From positions 1-64,000 of the forward strand of contig JAFIFV010000075.1 of assembly GCA_020831845.1 (NCBI GenBank): a stretch of DNA of 64,000 nucleotides, in the 5' to 3' direction. Positions within the stretch are counted from its first letter, which is position 1; each line of letters opens with the position of its first letter. Position numbers and translations under genes: made by a program. Below, piece by piece: positions 52,481 to 62,171 of this stretch. Origin of the DNA: Ectothiorhodospiraceae bacterium (lineage in GTDB: Bacteria; Pseudomonadota; Gammaproteobacteria; Nitrococcales; Aquisalimonadaceae). The notes under the pieces were generated by a model. That model saw nothing but the letters and a program-made list of their open reading frames with translations. It was not told the DNA's origin and did no database searches.

Positions 52481-52598
52481 CACACCGACCTCCCGCTGCA
52501 ATCCGGCACGCGCGGTGGGAGACGGACTCGCCCGCTGACGCACCGGACCCCGCCTGGCATCTCACCAGGCCATACAGCAATCCTCCGTCAATGAACGG

Positions 52599-52779
52599 GA
52601 ATCGCTTTGACCTGGATCAACAGGCCGACCCAACTCCGGCAAACCAGACCAGGAGGGGCGGTCAGAGCAGAACTTTTTCCACGCCCCTGCCCTTCGCGTG
52701 TTCGATGAACGTCTCCTGCCAACCGTCGCCGAGCAGATGCTTGGCCAGCTCGGTGACGATGTAGTCCGCGTCTCAACGC
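52599..52779. repeat. Direct repeat of the oxidase 3' end (copy 1)
   Basis: About 180 bp match 54927-55107 in the same orientation at roughly 85 per cent by eye, including 60 bp downstream of the stop codon (for example AATCGCTTT and CCTGGATCAAC). Sharing of untranslated sequence shows a DNA duplication rather than conserved protein. The two copies bracket 2.15 kb with two genes. Confidence 0.85.
52662..52778 (-). pseudogene. Fragment of the DUF3683 FAD/Fe-S oxidase gene
   Basis: The frame from the duplicated stop backwards encodes [20 protein letters not shown] and IEHAKGRGVEKVLL. That is the last 34 residues of the intact oxidase, with only Thr for Ile and Arg for Lys changed. Upstream the frame meets TGA almost at once, and homology ends near 52779. 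About 1260 codons are absent. Confidence 0.85.
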
Positions 52780-52952
52780 CCCGCCGTGCGAAAGATACGG
52801 CCGGCAGCGCGCAGTCGCATCCGGCCGACTTCCTGTCTAGTGTATCGGCACTGGAACACATGCTGTGCCAGGCTAGGCGCAACGCCTGCCGCCACAGCCG
52901 TCGCAAAGCTCCTTTCTCTTTTGTTTTTGCTTTGTTTTTCCTTTTTTTATTC

Positions 52953-52967
52953 TGGCACGTCTTGTGC
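52953..52967 (+). promoter_or_regulatory. Sigma-54 (RpoN) promoter
   Basis: TGGCACG, four bases (TCTT), then GTGC matches the consensus TGGCACG-N4-TTGC at ten of eleven fixed positions, with GG and GC exactly 12 bp apart. A T-rich tract of about 45 bp (52906-52950, TTTGTTTTTCC and similar) lies directly upstream, as in bent DNA or IHF sites at such promoters. Start would be near 52979, giving a 135-nt leader before the first gene. Confidence 0.75.
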
Positions 52968-53113
52968 TTAACACTCTCGGAGAGCCACAAGGAGCGACAT
53001 GGCGCTCCCGACCACAGAAGAAAAACCAGGAGCCACGGGCGGTCCCCCGAACTGGTCAACGTACGCCAGCGGGTATTCCGACCCCGGTCGTGTTCTGCGG
53101 AGGAGGGACCAAC

Positions 53114-53830
53114 GTGAATACTCGGGAGTTGTATCGGCAATTGCTGGCCATTGGCGACCCCTGGCGGGTGCGGCGACTGGAAATCAACGTTCGCGACAAG
53201 CGCCTGGATATCTGGGTCGAGCACGTGGCGGGATCCACCGGTGGTTTTCTGAGCAGGGCCCTGGGCAAGAAATCCGCCGGCTTTGACCGGGAACGCGTCT
53301 GGCGTCATCTCAATGTCGGTCGTTACCGCGCGTTCGTCCACTCGGAGGCGGCACCTTCCGGGGTCGAGCCGTTTCTGGGCGAGGAAGGAATACCGTTTAC
53401 CAACGCCATGGCCGCACGGGTTTCCAGCTTGCTGGCCGTGGGCACTTGCTACCGCGCCATCTGCACAGCGATGGACTTGGACTTCGAGGACGTCTGGCAA
53501 TTGAAGGCCGCACGTTACCGCGGTGCCGATACCAACGATACGGCACCCGACGCAGGGAATGAACTAGTCGCGTGGACGTCTGGCGGCCTGCCCCCTATTC
53601 CGGACGTGTCCGATCCTGTCTGGGAGCGGATGCTGGCCGGCGACCACAACTCGCGCATCAAGATCCTAAGCCTGCGCTTGCTGCTATCACAGACGCAGAT
53701 CCAGCTCCGGAACGTCGACGATCCGTCGCTCCGGCAGCAGAAGATCCACAAGCTGCGACGCTATTTCATCAACAATGCGCGCGCCCTGCGGCCGGAGATG
53801 CAACGTATATTCGATGACGTGCGCGTGTAG
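53114..53830 (+). CDS. ISL3-transposase-N-terminus-like protein without catalytic domain
   Basis: This 238-aa protein starts at GTG with AGGAGGG six bases upstream. The region RLEINVRDKRLDIWVEHVAG, then ERVWRHLNVGRYRAFVHSEA and PFTNAMAARVSSLLAVGTCY RAICTAMDLD follows the pattern of the N-terminal part of ISL3-family transposases (zinc ribbon, then helix-turn-helix). The zinc-binding cysteines and the whole DDE half are missing; the last 60 residues form a basic helical tail. It may be a domesticated DNA-binding or regulatory protein. It lies 26 bp before the next gene and shares the sigma-54 promoter. Homology by pattern only; function unknown. Confidence 0.7.
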   Translation: MNTRELYRQLLAIGDPWRVRRLEINVRDKRLDIWVEHVAGSTGGFLSRALGKKSAGFDRERVWRHLNVGRYRAFVHSEAAPSGVEPFLGEEGIPFTNAMAARVSSLLAVGTCYRAICTAMDLDFEDVWQLKAARYRGADTNDTAPDAGNELVAWTSGGLPPIPDVSDPVWERMLAGDHNSRIKILSLRLLLSQTQIQLRNVDDPSLRQQKIHKLRRYFINNARALRPEMQRIFDDVRV

Positions 53831-53856
53831 CACATCGACAGGATAGAGGGTCGGTT

Positions 53857-54885
53857 ATGGAACAAGCACAGCAACGGATGGATGGCCCCCATGGTGGCGC
53901 ACTTCTGGGCGCGGAGCAGGCGGCTGCCATGATACGCAGCGGCGGGTGGTTCGCCATTGCCGCAGACGAACCCGTGCTACGGCGGTTGCCACAGGGCAAC
54001 TGGATCGGCGGCACCATACCATACTTCATGGGCGCGAACGGCGGTGAGATCAGCCGCGAAAAGGTGCACGTAACACCGCTGCCGACAAGCGCGCATGGCG
54101 GGCCGTGGATTAGGCGATACGATGCGGAACATCTGCACCGCATCTGTGTGGACGCCCCGGAGCATGGCTATACACTGGTGATTTTGCCGGCGATGACCCC
54201 GGTCCATCAAACCTATGCGCGTGAAGCCCCCGGCTTCGAGGACATGTTCCTGAAGCCGGTCTTCGGCTGGGTAGCCGGCATCCATCTGGACGATATCAAC
54301 CGGTGCAGTCCGGCCGCCGTCGATGGTTCCAACAGCGTACTGTGCAGCCAGGAAGCAGTCGCGCTGCACGTTCCGTTGCCGGAAAGCCAGGTTGCCGAAA
54401 TCGGCATCGTCAACATCTTCGAGCAGGACCACGGAGACGTCATCCGCTTTCCCAGCGCAAGCTTCACGATCACCGGGTGCACGGTCAACGGCCGGCAGGA
54501 CAATCTTGCCGAGTACCTGCGCCGGCGAAATGCGGACCTGCGCTTACCGCTCGTTGCCGATTACTCCGGAAGCATGATCAATGTCAGCGTGAAGGCGGTG
54601 GACGAGGCGCGTGGCGCCGTGGAGCTCTATGCGCCGGTATTTCCCGGCGTGGAGTACCAGCTTGCCCGGCCGGTGGGGGACTATGTGCAGGCCTTCGAGC
54701 GCGCGCTGCGCGACGAAGGCGCCGGTACCGCGTGCTCCTTCAATTGCGTCCTGAATTTCCTGTACTCGGATCTCGAGGGGCGGTGCACACCCGGCTTCAA
54801 CGGCCCGATGACCTTTGGTGAAGTGGCATACCAGTTATTGAATCAGACCATGGTGTACATGGCGGTCCGCCGGCTCCCCACCTAG
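53857..54885 (+). CDS. Conserved protein of unknown function (DUF6976/FIST-like)
   Basis: This 342-aa cytoplasmic protein has no signal peptide or membrane segment. Recognisable parts are GGWFAIAADEPVLRRLPQGN, IGGTIPYFMGANGGEISREK near residue 50 and a later MINVSVKAVDEARGAVELYA. The layout is reminiscent of FIST-type sensory proteins. I recall similar proteins under DUF6976, but that label needs checking. It is the second gene of the sigma-54 operon. ATG lies 26 bp after the previous stop, with GAGGG upstream. Sigma-54 control suggests a role in nitrogen, flagellar or carbon-storage physiology, but none is shown. Confidence 0.75.
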   Translation: MEQAQQRMDGPHGGALLGAEQAAAMIRSGGWFAIAADEPVLRRLPQGNWIGGTIPYFMGANGGEISREKVHVTPLPTSAHGGPWIRRYDAEHLHRICVDAPEHGYTLVILPAMTPVHQTYAREAPGFEDMFLKPVFGWVAGIHLDDINRCSPAAVDGSNSVLCSQEAVALHVPLPESQVAEIGIVNIFEQDHGDVIRFPSASFTITGCTVNGRQDNLAEYLRRRNADLRLPLVADYSGSMINVSVKAVDEARGAVELYAPVFPGVEYQLARPVGDYVQAFERALRDEGAGTACSFNCVLNFLYSDLEGRCTPGFNGPMTFGEVAYQLLNQTMVYMAVRRLPT

Positions 54886-54926
54886 CGTCCAGCCTGCGGA
54901 TTGCCTTCCATCTCCGCCTTGGCGGC

Positions 54927-55107
54927 GAATCGCTTTTACCTGGATCAACCAGCCAACCGGACTATGGAAAACCAGGCCAGGAGGTTCGGTCAGAGCAGGA
55001 CTTTTTCCACGCCTTTGCCCTTCGCGTGCTCGATGAACGTCTCCTGCCAGCCGTCGCCGAGCAGGTGCTTGGCCAGTTCGATGACGATGTAGTCCGCTTC
55101 CACGCCG
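54927..55107. repeat. Direct repeat of the oxidase 3' end (copy 2, intact gene)
   Basis: It contains the last 38 codons of the intact oxidase and about 60 bp downstream of its stop. It is the partner of copy 1 at 52599-52779 and bounds the two-gene insert on the right. Confidence 0.85.
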
Positions 55108-58100
55108 GTATCGGCTTCGTAGCGGCTCAGGCCCTGCAGGCAGGCCGGGCAGGAGGTGAGCATTTTCACCTTGCCCTTGGCCACCGTCGGTTCACCGGTC
55201 AGCGCCGTCACACCCTTGTTGATTTCCTCTTCCTTGCGGAAACGCACCTGGGTGGCAATGTCCGGGCGGCTGACTGCGAAGGTGCCGGCCTCGCCGCAGC
55301 AGCGATCGTTCAGCGGCACGTCCTTGCCCATCAACGTGCTGGCCACCTTCATGGAGTTGTGGGTCTTCATCGGCGTGTGACAGGGCTCGTGGTACATGTA
55401 CTGCACGCCGTCCACGCCATCCAGCTTGTAGCCCTTTTCCATCAGGTACTCGTGGATGTCCAGCAGCCGGCAGCCCGGGAAGATGCGTTCGAATTCGTAC
55501 TTCAGCAACTGGTCCATGCAGGTGCCGCAGGACACGATCACCGTCTTGATGTCCATGTAGTTCAGCGTGTTGGCCACGCGGTGGAACAGCACGCGGTTCT
55601 CGGTGGTGATGGCCTGACCCTTGTCGATATCACCGTTGGAGGTCTGCGGGTAGCCGCAGCAGAGATATCCGGGCGGCAGCACGGTCTGGGCACCGGCGTC
55701 GTACAGCATGGCCATGGTAGCCAGACCGATCTGGCTGAACAGCCGCTCCGAGCCGCAGCCGGGGAAGTAGAATACGGCGTCGCTGTTCTCGTTCACCTTC
55801 TCCGGGTTTCGGAGGATGGGCACGTGGGTGCGGTCCTCGATGTCCAGCAGCGCACGCGCCGTCTTGCTGGGCAGGTTGCCGGGCATGGGCTTGCGCACGA
55901 AATGCACCACCTGCGCCGGAATGGACGAGCGGTCCGTGGTGTTCGCCGGCCGTGCCTTGGGCTTGGCGTCCGGCGCCTTCCTGCTGGGCACGATACCGAC
56001 CTTGCGGGCCAGGCTGGAGCCGATGCGCTGGGCGCCGTAGCCCCATTCGATCATGCCCTTGCGCATGACCTTGATGGTGCGCGGGTCGGTGGTATTGAGG
56101 AACGCCATGGACGCCATCGTGGCGACCTTGGTCTTGCGCTTGCCGTGTTCCTTCAGGATGCCGCGCATCTTCACCGTGACGTCGCCGAAATCGATGTTCA
56201 CCGGGCACGGGGTCACGCAGCGGTGGCAGATGGTGCAGTGGTCCGCTACGTCGTTCATCTGGTCCCAGTGATCCAGCGAGATGCCACGCCGGGTCTGTTC
56301 CTCGTACAGGAAGGCCTCCACCAGCAGGTTGGTGGCCAGGATCTTGTCCCGCGGCGAGTAGCGCAGGTTGGCCCGCGGCACGTGGGTGGTGCAGACGGGC
56401 TTGCACTTGCCGCAGCGCAGGCAGTCCTTGATGTCGTTGTTCAGGTCGCCCAGTTCGCTCTGCTCCAGGATCAGCGCTTCCTGCTCCACCAGTCGCAGAG
56501 AGGGCGTATAGGCGTTCTGCAGCCCGGAACCGGTGAGCAGCTTGCCGCGGTTGAACCACCCCTGCGGGTCCACCTGTTCCTTGTAGGCCCTGAAGGAGTC
56601 GATGGTGGCCTGATCCAGATACTGCATCTTGGTGAGGCCGATGCCATGCTCGCCGGAGATCACGCCGTTCAGCCGCCGTGCCAGGGCCATGACCTGGTCA
56701 ACGATGCGGTCGGCTTCCTGCATCATCTCGTAATCGTTGGAATTGACCGGAATATTGGTGTGTACGTTGCCGTCGCCGGCGTGCATGTGCAGCGCCACGA
56801 ACAGACGGCTGGACAGAACGTCCTTGTGAATGGCGTCGATCTTGCGGCACACCGGCTCCAGGTCACGGCCATCGAAGATCTCCTTCAGCGACCGTTCGAT
56901 CTCCGTCCGGTAGGAAATACGCAGGCTACGGCGCAGCAACAGGTTGATGAGCCGGTCGCCCTCGCGCAGGTCGGCGCGCGCGGTCTCGTCCAGTAGCGCA
57001 TCGTGTTCTGCAGCCGGGGACTCCAGGTTGTCCAGTACCGCCTGCCAGCGTGCTTCCACCGCCGCCAGGTGCTTCACCGCACGCTTCTGCTTGCGCGAGA
57101 GAATGGAGCCGCCCTCTTCCGAGGCATCCAGGTCCTCGCGATCCAGGTAGTCCGGCCGCGCCTGCTTCAGTTCCGGCAGGCTGCCCTGGAAATGCGCTTT
57201 CAACTCCTGCGCCATGCGCAGCTTGTTCTTCATGGACTGGACGATGTTGATGCGCTCGATGCCGTCGCTGTATTCCGCCAGCTTGTCCAGCGGGATGACC
57301 ACGTCCTCGTTGATCTTGAAGGCGTTGGTGTGGGCGGCGATGGCGGCGGTGCGGGAGCGGTCGGCCCAGAAAGTCTTCCGCGCCTCGGCGCTGACGGCAA
57401 TGTAGCCGTCGCCGTTGCGCTTGCCGGCCAGCCGCACCATGCGTTCGGCGGCATCCTGACAGGCGGCTTCCTCGTCGGCGGCCAGGTCGGCGATCAACAC
57501 CATCTTGGGTCGTTCGCCGCGCTCGCCCTTGGGGGAGTAGCCCACGGCGCGCACGTAGCGTTCGTCCAGATGCTCCAGACCGGAGAGTTTTACGTTGGGA
57601 TCGGCCTGCAGGTCGTCGACAATCTCGACGATGGCGGGCACGGCTTCCTGCAGATCCAGCCCGTAGAACTCCAGGCAGACGGTGCGCATGTGCTTCGGCA
57701 TCACGTGCAGGATGAACGTGGCCGACGTGATCAGCCCGTCGCAACCTTCCTTCTGCACGCCGGGCACGCCGCCCAGGAACTTGTCGGTGACATCCTTGCC
57801 CAGGCCCACCTTGCGGAAGCTGGCACCGGGGAAAGTGAGCACCTCCGGTTCGCCCTTGCGGGTCTTGCCGTCGGCCTGGTAACGGGTCACGCGGAACTGC
57901 ACCGTTTCCTGGTCATGGATCTTGCCCAGGTTATGGTTCAGGCGCTCCACATCCAGCCATTCGGCGTCCGGCGTTACCATGCGCCAGGAGGCCAGGTTGT
58001 CCAGTGCCGTACCCCAGAGCACTGCCTTCTTGCCACCGGCATTCATGGCCACATTGCCGCCGATGGTGCAGGCGTCCTGGCTGGTGGGGTCCACTGCGAA

Positions 58101-58883
58101 CACGTAACCGTGCATATTGGCCAGATCGGATACCCGCCGCGTCACCACACCGGCCTCGGCACGCACCGTAGGCACCTTGCTTTCCACGCCGGGGAGTTCC
58201 TTCAACTCCACACGCCCCAGCCCTTCCAGCTTTTCCATGTTGATGACGGCGCAGTGCTCGTGCATGGGCACGGCACCGCCGGTATAGCCAGTGCCGCCGC
58301 CGCGCGGGATCACGGTCAGGCCCATTTCGATAGCGGTTTTCACCACCCCGGCCATCTCTTCCTCGGTGTCCGGGGTCAACACCACGAACGGCACCTCGAT
58401 GCGCCAGTCGGTGGCGTCGGTCTGGTGGGAGACGCGGGAAATGCCATCGAAACGGATGTTGTCCTTGCGGGTGTGCTTCTGGAAGGCCTTGCGCGCCTCG
58501 TCCCGGCGAGCGATGGTGGCCGGGAACCAGGCTTCGAACTCTTCCACCGCCTTGCGCGCCAGTTCCGCCAGCCGATGCGCCTGCTCATTGTTGTCGGCCC
58601 GCTGCACGATCTGGTCCAGCCGATGGTGCATGGCCTTGACCAGGGCATCCAGCCGCTTCGCGTTATCCAGCAGATCGTCCTGGATATAAGGGTTCCGGCG
58701 GACTACCCAGAGATCGCCCAGCACCTCGAACAACATGCGTGCCGAAATGCCCGTACGGCGCTCCTCGCGCAGGGTGTTCAGCGTCTCCCATGCCTCTTCG
58801 CCGAGATAACGAAGAACGATCTCCCGGTCGGAAAAAGACGTGTAGTTGTAGGGAATTTCTCGGATACGCGCAGTGCTGGTCAT
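54990..58883 (-). CDS. Giant FAD-linked oxidase with Fe-S domain (DUF3683, D-2-hydroxyacid dehydrogenase class)
   Basis: This 1297-aa cytoplasmic enzyme oxidises a 2-hydroxyacid, probably D-lactate or a relative, passing electrons through iron-sulfur clusters. The layout is DUF3683 (about residues 1-150, [20 protein letters not shown]), an FAD_binding_4 domain ([20 protein letters not shown]), FAD-oxidase C-terminal domain, two 4Fe-4S motifs ([11 protein letters not shown] and [12 protein letters not shown]) and two CCG domains ([10 protein letters not shown] with [15 protein letters not shown] with DRCCGEAG). It is therefore a natural fusion of the flavin and Fe-S subunits that are separate in glycolate oxidase. 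ATG 58883 fits the DUF3683 start. A duplicate of its 3' end lies 2.2 kb away. Confidence 0.94.
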
Positions 58884-59705: not shown

Positions 59706-62171
59706 TCACTGGTTGATTTCGTTCCACTGGAACCGGGTGATCCGATTGCTGATCAGCGAGTAGACGAACACCGCCCCCCCACCCGATTCCACGTGCTCGG
59801 CGGCGAACAGTCCACCAGGGCGGGTGCCGAGATCCGGATCCAGCCAATGGCCGAGGTACGCAGGACTGATCGTGCCATCACCCGCCACCGGCGCGCCATC
59901 CGGGTTCGACCAGGCACGCGCCACCATGCTGAAACTGTCGCCCACGATCAGTGCATCCTGGGCCGCATCGTAGGCCAGCCCCACCGGCAGGAAGAACTGC
60001 TCCGGATCGAGTCCGTCGGGGTGATCGTAGGTGCCGCCGCCCTGCCCCACCTGCCCCAGCAGCGCGCCGTTGGAAGGATTCAGCGCCTGCACGCGCTGGT
60101 TACGGCGGTCGACCACGTAAACGCGGTCATCCAGCGCCAACACATCGTGGATCTGATCAAAGGTACCGGCCGCACCCTGGTCGAAAAACGCCGTGCCCAG
60201 GCTCCAGTCGGGGCCCAGGTCATCCCCTTTCGCGGCATCCGGTCCGCCGCTGTACCAGGCGCCCGTCAGCGTGCCGCTGCTGGCGTTGTAGTTGAAACGC
60301 CAGGCGTAGCCGCCAAAGCTTGTCAGATACACCTGATGCTGTCGGCTGCTCTCACTGCGCACCGATACCGCCACGGGAAAGTTGCCATTCGTGAATGCAA
60401 TGCGCGGAACCGCCAGACCGCCGGTGCGGTAGGTGAGATTGAAAATGTGCCGCAAGTTACCGTTGGCCGAATAGACGCGCAGGCTGCTGTCGCCGGTGTA
60501 GGGCCAGGGTAGCGTGGCATCGGCCGCCACCAGCACCGCCACGCTCTCGCCGAAGCCGCCGTCGGTGAAGGCGTTGATACCCATGACGCCGTAACTGATG
60601 TTGGTACCCGGGAATCGCCCCAGGTAATTGCCTTCGTGGTCGTACATGTTGATACGCGTATTCGGCGTATCGCTGACCAGCAGCCGGTTGGTGTTCTCGA
60701 AATAGGCCATGCCGGAAACAGCGTGGAGCTGCCCCTGCAGCGTGCGCGGATATCCCCAGAATTCGTGATTGCTCTGGCCTCCCACACCGGCGGAGACGGA
60801 ACAGCGCAGCAGCGTCTGGCCGCTGGAGGAACTCCAGCACTTCTTGATGCGGTGGTTGCCGGTGTCGCTGACCAGGTGAACGCGGGCGTTGGTGTAGTGG
60901 ATTCCCCAGGCCCAGATGTTTTCCCGATAGATGCTGCCATCCGCCCGGACCAGCGGGACCACGTCGTTGGGGAGTTGGAACGCGGCATCCTCGGTACCAG
61001 CTGTAGCGGGCGTGCGCATTTCGATCTGATGGATCCCAAGGCGGCCATACACCCAGGCGGCCTGGGCATCGGTGCTGCCGCTGCTGCGATACCTGATCGC
61101 GTGCGGATCACCACTCCCGGCAATGTTCGGCAGCTTGATGATACGGCCGTTGTAGGTGTCTGCAATGTACAGATTACCCGCCGCATCAGTGCGCAAACCA
61201 CGCGGCCGTTTCAGATGGTCTGCGCTACCGCCGGCATCGCGGAACCGGCCTATCATGTCCAGCAGACTCAATTGGCCGGTGCCGTTATCCACCGCGTAGA
61301 TCTTTACCCGGTTGCTGCCGTTGTCAGCCACGTAGACGTAGGTCTGTTCGGTCTGGGCATCACGGTAATAGGTCAGGCCCTGGGGGATGCGGAAACCGTC
61401 CCGCTTGTCGGGGTCCGAGGCATAGTCCTCGTAGTGCGTGGAGTTGCTGCCGTAGTTCTTGTCCACACCCCGGATGACAGGTCCCGCCGGTACGTGGCTT
61501 CCGCCCTGCTGCCAGCCCAGCGTCTGCACCAGCGTGGCCTGGTAGGCCAGATCCGGGTCGATCTGGAAAGCCTTGACCCTGTGATTGAACTCGTCCGACA
61601 CGTAAATGAAGCCCTGCGGCGTGATCACCATGTTCCTGGGCAACTTCAGCTCGTCCCCGCCCCCGGTGCCCTTGGTACCGATCGAGGTCACGTACTCGAA
61701 GGCGTTCGGATCACCGGAAACCGTACGGTAGAAGTGGATCTGGTGCAGACCGACGTCGTTCACGTACAAGCCCGCCAGGCGATTGTCATCGGCCTCGCTC
61801 TCGGACAGGAAGGCAATGCCCAGTGGCGCACGTATCTCCGGCACGCCGGCATGAGGGCTGTCCGCGGCCAGGCTCTGGGTTGAATCGTTCAACGTGCCGA
61901 TCCGCTGGCCGTTCAGGTTCAGCACCTGGATTTCGTGGTTGCCCATGTCCGCCACGTAAACCCGCACTGTGGCCGGATTGCTGCCCAGTGTGTCCATGTC
62001 ATAGGTGACCGTGGTGGGCGTGTTGAACTGGTAACGTTGATGAACCGGTTTCGACGCAAGTTCCGCCGAGCGGTCCTCGTCGGCAAACGTGATGAAGGCT
62101 GGCGCCAGTGCGGGAAATCCCGCCAGCAACGCCGAAAACAACACCCCGATTAGCAAACGCCTGATCGCCAT
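59706..62171 (-). CDS. Secreted NHL-repeat beta-propeller protein
   Basis: This 821-aa exported protein has a signal peptide (LLIGVLFSALLAGFPALAPA) and many NHL-type blades. Examples are VYVADMGNHEIQVLNLNGQR, GFIYVSDEFNHRVKAFQ, YVYVADNGSNRVKIYAVD, NLYIADTYNGRIIKLPN and VYVVDRRNQRVQALNPSNG, enough for one or two propellers. No catalytic domain is visible. NHL proteins in the periplasm or outside commonly bind ligands or other proteins. The gene is preceded by a dispersed repeat at 62218-62250 and is alone on its strand. A role at the cell surface with the polysaccharide is conceivable, without direct evidence. Confidence 0.88.
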   Translation of the reverse strand: MAIRRLLIGVLFSALLAGFPALAPAFITFADEDRSAELASKPVHQRYQFNTPTTVTYDMDTLGSNPATVRVYVADMGNHEIQVLNLNGQRIGTLNDSTQSLAADSPHAGVPEIRAPLGIAFLSESEADDNRLAGLYVNDVGLHQIHFYRTVSGDPNAFEYVTSIGTKGTGGGDELKLPRNMVITPQGFIYVSDEFNHRVKAFQIDPDLAYQATLVQTLGWQQGGSHVPAGPVIRGVDKNYGSNSTHYEDYASDPDKRDGFRIPQGLTYYRDAQTEQTYVYVADNGSNRVKIYAVDNGTGQLSLLDMIGRFRDAGGSADHLKRPRGLRTDAAGNLYIADTYNGRIIKLPNIAGSGDPHAIRYRSSGSTDAQAAWVYGRLGIHQIEMRTPATAGTEDAAFQLPNDVVPLVRADGSIYRENIWAWGIHYTNARVHLVSDTGNHRIKKCWSSSSGQTLLRCSVSAGVGGQSNHEFWGYPRTLQGQLHAVSGMAYFENTNRLLVSDTPNTRINMYDHEGNYLGRFPGTNISYGVMGINAFTDGGFGESVAVLVAADATLPWPYTGDSSLRVYSANGNLRHIFNLTYRTGGLAVPRIAFTNGNFPVAVSVRSESSRQHQVYLTSFGGYAWRFNYNASSGTLTGAWYSGGPDAAKGDDLGPDWSLGTAFFDQGAAGTFDQIHDVLALDDRVYVVDRRNQRVQALNPSNGALLGQVGQGGGTYDHPDGLDPEQFFLPVGLAYDAAQDALIVGDSFSMVARAWSNPDGAPVAGDGTISPAYLGHWLDPDLGTRPGGLFAAEHVESGGGAVFVYSLISNRITRFQWNEINQ

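Follow-up and report, generated by a model that had tools for sequence, protein, structure and literature searches.

A putative sigma-54 operon pairing an ISL3-like protein that lacks a catalytic half with DUF6976, a protein of predicted FIST fold

The operon and its setting

The window, that is, the whole 64,000-nucleotide stretch of DNA that was analysed, contains two plus-strand genes separated by 26 bp, downstream of a T-rich tract and a sigma-54 element with exact -24/-12 spacing. All of these had been picked out in a preliminary description of the window, and all were recovered at defined coordinates. The features considered here are as follows.

52599-52772: left copy of a 174-bp direct repeat, which includes the final 37 codons of the FAD/Fe-S oxidase gene that lies downstream (minus strand)
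52834-52850, plus strand: candidate enhancer dyad TGTCTAGTGTATCGGCA (weak), 119 bp ahead of the -24 element
52851-52871: imperfect inverted repeat CTGGAACA-N5-TGTGCCAG, an alternative enhancer candidate
52912-52952, plus strand: T-rich tract (30 of 41 bases are T), abutting the -24 element on its upstream side
52953-52968, plus strand: putative sigma-54 -24/-12 promoter TGGCACG-TCTT-GTGCT (TGGCACGTCTTGTGCT), spacing GG-N10-GC
53114-53830, plus strand: gene 1, 238 amino acids, GTG start codon, Shine-Dalgarno sequence GGAGGAGG
53402-53533, plus strand: predicted helix-turn-helix (HTH) region of gene 1 (residues 97-140), from the AF2 model and VIA alignments
53597-53815, plus strand: helical domain at the C-terminus of gene 1 (roughly residues 162-234), which partners DUF6976 almost universally
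53857-54885, plus strand: gene 2, 342 amino acids, DUF6976 (PF22396), predicted FIST fold
54927-55100: right copy of the 174-bp direct repeat, comprising the 3' end of the oxidase gene and DNA downstream of it

The element TGGCACGTCTTGTGCT scored 16.44 of a maximum of 20.05 and was the top position on either strand of the window (runner-up, 14.14), using a sigma-54 matrix that does not come from a database and a scoring rule of our own. Transcription from it is predicted to start near 52979. T content peaks within the window in the adjoining tract, at 29 of 38 bases in the 38-mer starting at 52913-52914. Across the source genome the pattern TGGCACGNNNNNTGCW matched 22 times, compared with 4 matches for a reversed control pattern. 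One match lies upstream of a PEP-CTERM gene; others precede what we take, by eye from the translations, to be two PII-type genes, a type IV pilin gene, FlgB and a response regulator. The excess over the control, together with typical sigma-54 genes downstream, indicates that the motif is meaningful in the source organism, which also encodes RpoN (PF04552 match, E 6.3e-70). No sigma-70-like promoter was found across 52500-55200. These sequence features suggest that TGGCACGTCTTGTGCT may be used as a promoter, and that both genes are probably switched on together, under particular conditions only. A 95-amino-acid frame (52999-53286) that overlaps gene 1 out of frame begins 20 nt past the predicted start site, at an ATG that has a good AAGGAG site; it is perhaps a leader peptide, or a chance occurrence.

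The operon is bracketed by the two repeat copies, one on each side and 88% identical. The oxidase gene occupies 54990-58883 on the minus strand, and the left copy matches the oxidase at the protein level over 52665-52775. Both genus mates carry the oxidase and gave no DUF6976 match, and their alignments to the window end at the oxidase stop codon. Because a repeat brackets the operon and the genus mates do not have it, the operon was probably gained, or moved to this position, in the source lineage.

Co-occurrence of the two genes

Many bacteria carry the gene pair, for which no function is known. DUF6976 was found in 6 of 59 relative genomes, the source genome included, and in all five others a gene 1 homologue lies directly upstream of it. 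Of 369 genomes of the class, six contain DUF6976 and the same six contain the C-terminal domain of gene 1 (Fisher p 3e-13, uncorrected for relatedness); one further marginal match to that domain in genome G179 (E 9.8e-4), interrupted by stop codons, was left out of the count.

A profile scan of named genomes yielded 177 relatives, and the 80 best were retained; with later searches these make up a set of 100 loci, in which the window's own locus and five pairs of duplicates are counted. In 96 of the 100, DUF6976 is directly preceded by the C-terminal domain of gene 1, so the suggestion that the two genes might never co-occur outside this strain clearly fails. The four loci where no partner domain was found upstream are L125, L126, L128 and L129; the upstream gene resembles, by eye, a Ser/Thr kinase gene in L125 and L126 and a membrane transporter gene in L129. 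Among 80 loci, no third constant neighbour gene was found. DUF6976 extends from Betaproteobacteria to metagenome-assembled genomes assigned to Spirochaetes and Acidobacteria. It is also present on three plasmid records.

Gene 2 encodes a DUF6976 protein with a predicted FIST fold

The second gene, initially described as encoding a conserved protein of unknown function, is DUF6976 (437.5 bits, compared with a Pfam cut-off of 27 bits). By sequence it falls outside Pfam's FIST family: FIST_C scored 14.7 bits on gene 2 of the window, under the 28.5-bit Pfam cut-off, and matched 12 of 49 DUF6976 members with a best E of 0.0014. An hhalign comparison aligned DUF6976 collinearly with ten FIST proteins across 232 columns (E 6.8e-4), but the probability it reported was low, at 26.9%. 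A search of PDB sequences with DUF6976 returned nothing, and a literature search for DUF6976 found no mention of it.

The structural model of gene 2 has a mean pLDDT of 90.5 and a pTM of 0.89. Foldseek ranked FBXO22 entries best (E 3.4e-4), and with VIA four FBXO22 entries led (Z 11.6, 11.4, 11.3 and 10.8), the next row being a chorismatase at 6.2. Judged from this model, gene 2 likely has a FIST fold, which is a sensory fold. Its predicted fold resembles the FIST domain of human FBXO22 over 216 residues in the top alignment (Z 11.6); the identity there is only 12%, however, and gene 2 differs from FBXO22 in its role and in having no F-box.

The C-terminal helical domain as the constant part of gene 1

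The first protein had been likened to the N-terminal part of ISL3 transposases, without a catalytic half. The likeness is seen among its homologues: of 45, Zn_ribbon_ISL3 was matched by 11 and HTH_Tnp_ISL3 by 4, with a best E of about 5e-4. The window's protein itself has no Pfam match, DDE included, and carries a different helical domain at its C-terminus instead of DDE. The AF2 model (mean pLDDT 86) predicts a strand-rich start, the HTH, a disordered linker and a helical end. VIA alignments of residues 96-148 gave a best Z of 6.4, with leading rows that are mostly HTH proteins. Foldseek returned nothing for gene 1 at E <=0.001, a search of PDB sequences gave nothing usable and a search of the genome contigs with gene 1 alone gave no match. 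The C-terminal domain had no usable Pfam match among 44 members scanned, and no solved structure stood out for it in a gene 1 comparison that barely covered that domain. Gene 1 resembles ISL3-family transposases in a putative ribbon and HTH at the N-terminus, and is unlike them in its missing DDE domain, its new C-terminal domain and its fixed partnership with DUF6976. A literature search on ISL3 with 'domesticated transposase' found nothing, and one on HTH_Tnp_ISL3 a single paper on another subject.

Comparison of 94 distinct foreign loci revealed the N-terminal part in 66, the C-terminal domain only in 24 and neither in 4. Ten of the 100 loci have the C-terminal domain repeated in tandem, 2 to 5 times, with five copies in the gene 1 homologue of L118 and four in that of L119. 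At L084:2-1255, where the contig begins, this domain is fused to DUF6976 in one frame. What stays constant in gene 1, by these architecture counts, is the small C-terminal domain rather than the ISL3-like half. The latter has been added, mainly in Beta- and some Gammaproteobacteria; in distant bacteria the C-terminal domain accompanies DUF6976 without it.

Both zinc-ribbon CxxC pairs are kept in only 1 of the 66 loci with the N-terminal part (L055), and in our reading the presumed recognition helix of the window's gene 1 is not notably basic, so DNA binding may have been lost. Nor would it be essential to the module, since the partner domain occurs without the DNA-binding part in 24 of the 94 loci and DUF6976 stands alone in 4. 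Gene 1 may plausibly bind DNA directly, a proposal made with caution because the zinc ligands are lost and partners without an HTH exist.

Recurrence of the promoter element among relatives

Upstream regions scored at least 11 on the sigma-54 matrix in 24 of 72 loci, compared with 3.8% of segments drawn at random from those loci. In a fuller set the sigma-54-like site was found in 24 of 65 loci with the ISL3-like part but in only 1 of 25 without it (Fisher p about 9e-4, uncorrected for relatedness). On this set the reversed matrix gave 0 and 200 column-permuted matrices gave a mean of 0.99 and a maximum of 10. Of the 24 loci with the site, 21 (Zoogloea, Dechloromonas, Hydrogenophaga and their relatives) have it 65-110 bp ahead of the aligned start; in L080, L081 and L120 the distance is 172-234 bp. 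No such site was found in the other 41 of the 65, which include the window's four closest relatives (L008-L011) and all eight Methyloversatilis loci.

Proposed mechanism and alternatives

The best explanation, to which we give somewhat less than an even chance, is that a FIST sensor controls a DNA-binding partner in an operon expressed by sigma-54. Sigma-54 RNA polymerase would transcribe the operon from 52953-52968 once an NtrC-family activator is active. Gene 2 would be a soluble protein of FIST fold, probably the binder of a small ligand, and gene 1 would dock on it through the C-terminal helical domain. The ISL3-derived ribbon and HTH, devoid of the catalytic domain, have probably been domesticated as a DNA-binding output, and ligand binding would alter the activity of this transcription regulator with no kinase step. 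More tentative still is the broader proposal of a kinase-free signal relay, running from a FIST-fold sensor through a helical docking domain absent from Pfam to a domesticated transposase DNA-binding domain, in which the DNA-binding part was added to an older sensor-partner pair, often under sigma-54.

The alternatives differ in which part of this scheme they replace. It is possible, if doubtful, that the FIST protein joins its helical partner in a sensor or scaffold complex that acts through protein-protein contact, with the ISL3-derived part serving as an oligomerization or docking extension that does not bind DNA. Partners without the ISL3-like part (24 of 94 distinct loci), tandem partner domains (10 of 100 loci) and the disappearance of the zinc ligands from all but one of 66 loci would fit such a scaffold; the HTH, however, is modelled confidently (blocks of about 93-95 pLDDT) and sequence conservation runs through it. 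DUF6976 could instead be an enzyme of the chorismatase or cyclic amide hydrolase (Toblerone) type, with gene 1 as its regulator or chaperone. We consider this improbable: although rows 5-12 of the structure comparison are of chorismatase and cyanuric-acid-hydrolase type, near full length at Z 4.6-6.2, and DUF6976 has many invariant polar residues, the FIST domain of FBXO22 is far ahead (Z 10.8-11.6, compared with 6.2) and the recurring Pfam match is FIST_C.

Given its ISL3-like N-terminus, gene 1 could also be a repressor of ISL3 insertion sequences, or a remnant of them, that binds their ends. This is very unlikely, as DDE_Tnp_ISL3 occurs in only 7 of 14 DUF6976-positive genomes and gene 1 is partnered with DUF6976, not with a transposase. 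As for the promoter, there is a slim chance that the sigma-54 match arose by coincidence and that some other promoter drives the operon. Its absence from the four closest relatives and the four genomic matches to the reversed pattern point that way, but the site is the best of the window, the genome-wide count is 22 compared with 4, the site recurs at similar positions in betaproteobacteria and the search for a nearby sigma-70-like site came back empty. The reading of a sigma-54-driven pair whose first product is ISL3-like and lacks the catalytic half is supported, with promoter use deduced from sequence.

The proposed sensor-partner operon has a parallel in NosP, which, according to PMC12570481, is a heme-binding FIST protein that controls a partner encoded beside it. 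As with NosP/NosK, the operon encodes a soluble FIST-type protein, by prediction, beside the protein that it would control. The partner of NosP is a histidine kinase, whereas here a new helical domain takes its place, in many cases joined to an ISL3-derived HTH; DUF6976 is also a separate Pfam family. If the proposal is correct, DUF6976, a family of unknown function, becomes a FIST-type sensor with its own near-obligate partner domain, and parts of a transposase have been recruited as the output module of such a sensor. It would also offer a route to finding what FIST proteins bind and which regulon they control when no kinase pathway is involved, in a two-gene system small enough for reconstitution and testing.

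Candidate activator sites

Candidate activator sites lie upstream of the putative promoter. The dyad TGTCTAGTGTATCGGCA scores just at threshold, near the chance level for one sequence. Among the 24 relatives with a sigma-54-like site, a 17-bp dyad TGT-N11-ACA lies upstream in 14, compared with a shuffled mean of 1.73, under a rule of our own, set after the sequences had been viewed; it is weak in the window. In 8 of 80 loci (L010, L011, L027, L029, L031, L049, L071 and L081) the pair has a gene for an AcoR-like sigma-54 activator no more than 10 kb away; these neighbours are a lead only. L071 has AcoR-like copies on both sides of the pair, and in L081 (the same locus as L003) the AcoR-like gene is just upstream of gene 1.

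PMC1569441 describes PEP-CTERM genes controlled by PrsR and RpoN that have a sigma-54 promoter and an upstream 17-bp site, an arrangement that the operon, with its putative promoter and candidate dyad, may share. The PrsR motif was rebuilt from 14 sites upstream of PEP-CTERM genes (training scores 14.9-25.3), the criterion being a 17-nt motif ending in TTTACA upstream of a sigma-54 site. Unlike those genes, none of the 24 operon upstream regions with a sigma-54-like site reached PrsR motif scores (window, -2.8), and the TGT-N11-ACA dyad differs from the rebuilt motif; control by PrsR is not supported. Nor does the presence of PrsR follow that of the operon, with TIGR02915 above cut-off in 12 of 26 DUF6976-positive and 13 of 24 DUF6976-negative genomes, and membership of a PrsR/PEP-CTERM regulon was rejected. 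The source genome itself carries PrsR and PEP-CTERM genes, and one PEP-CTERM gene (L142/L185, contig C55 of genome G000) has a sigma-54 site and the PrsR-type motif TGTCAGGTTCCTTTACA upstream. Within the window, an NHL-repeat protein encoded at 59706-62171 on the minus strand resembles the PEP-CTERM protein ScyF, below the curated cut-off.
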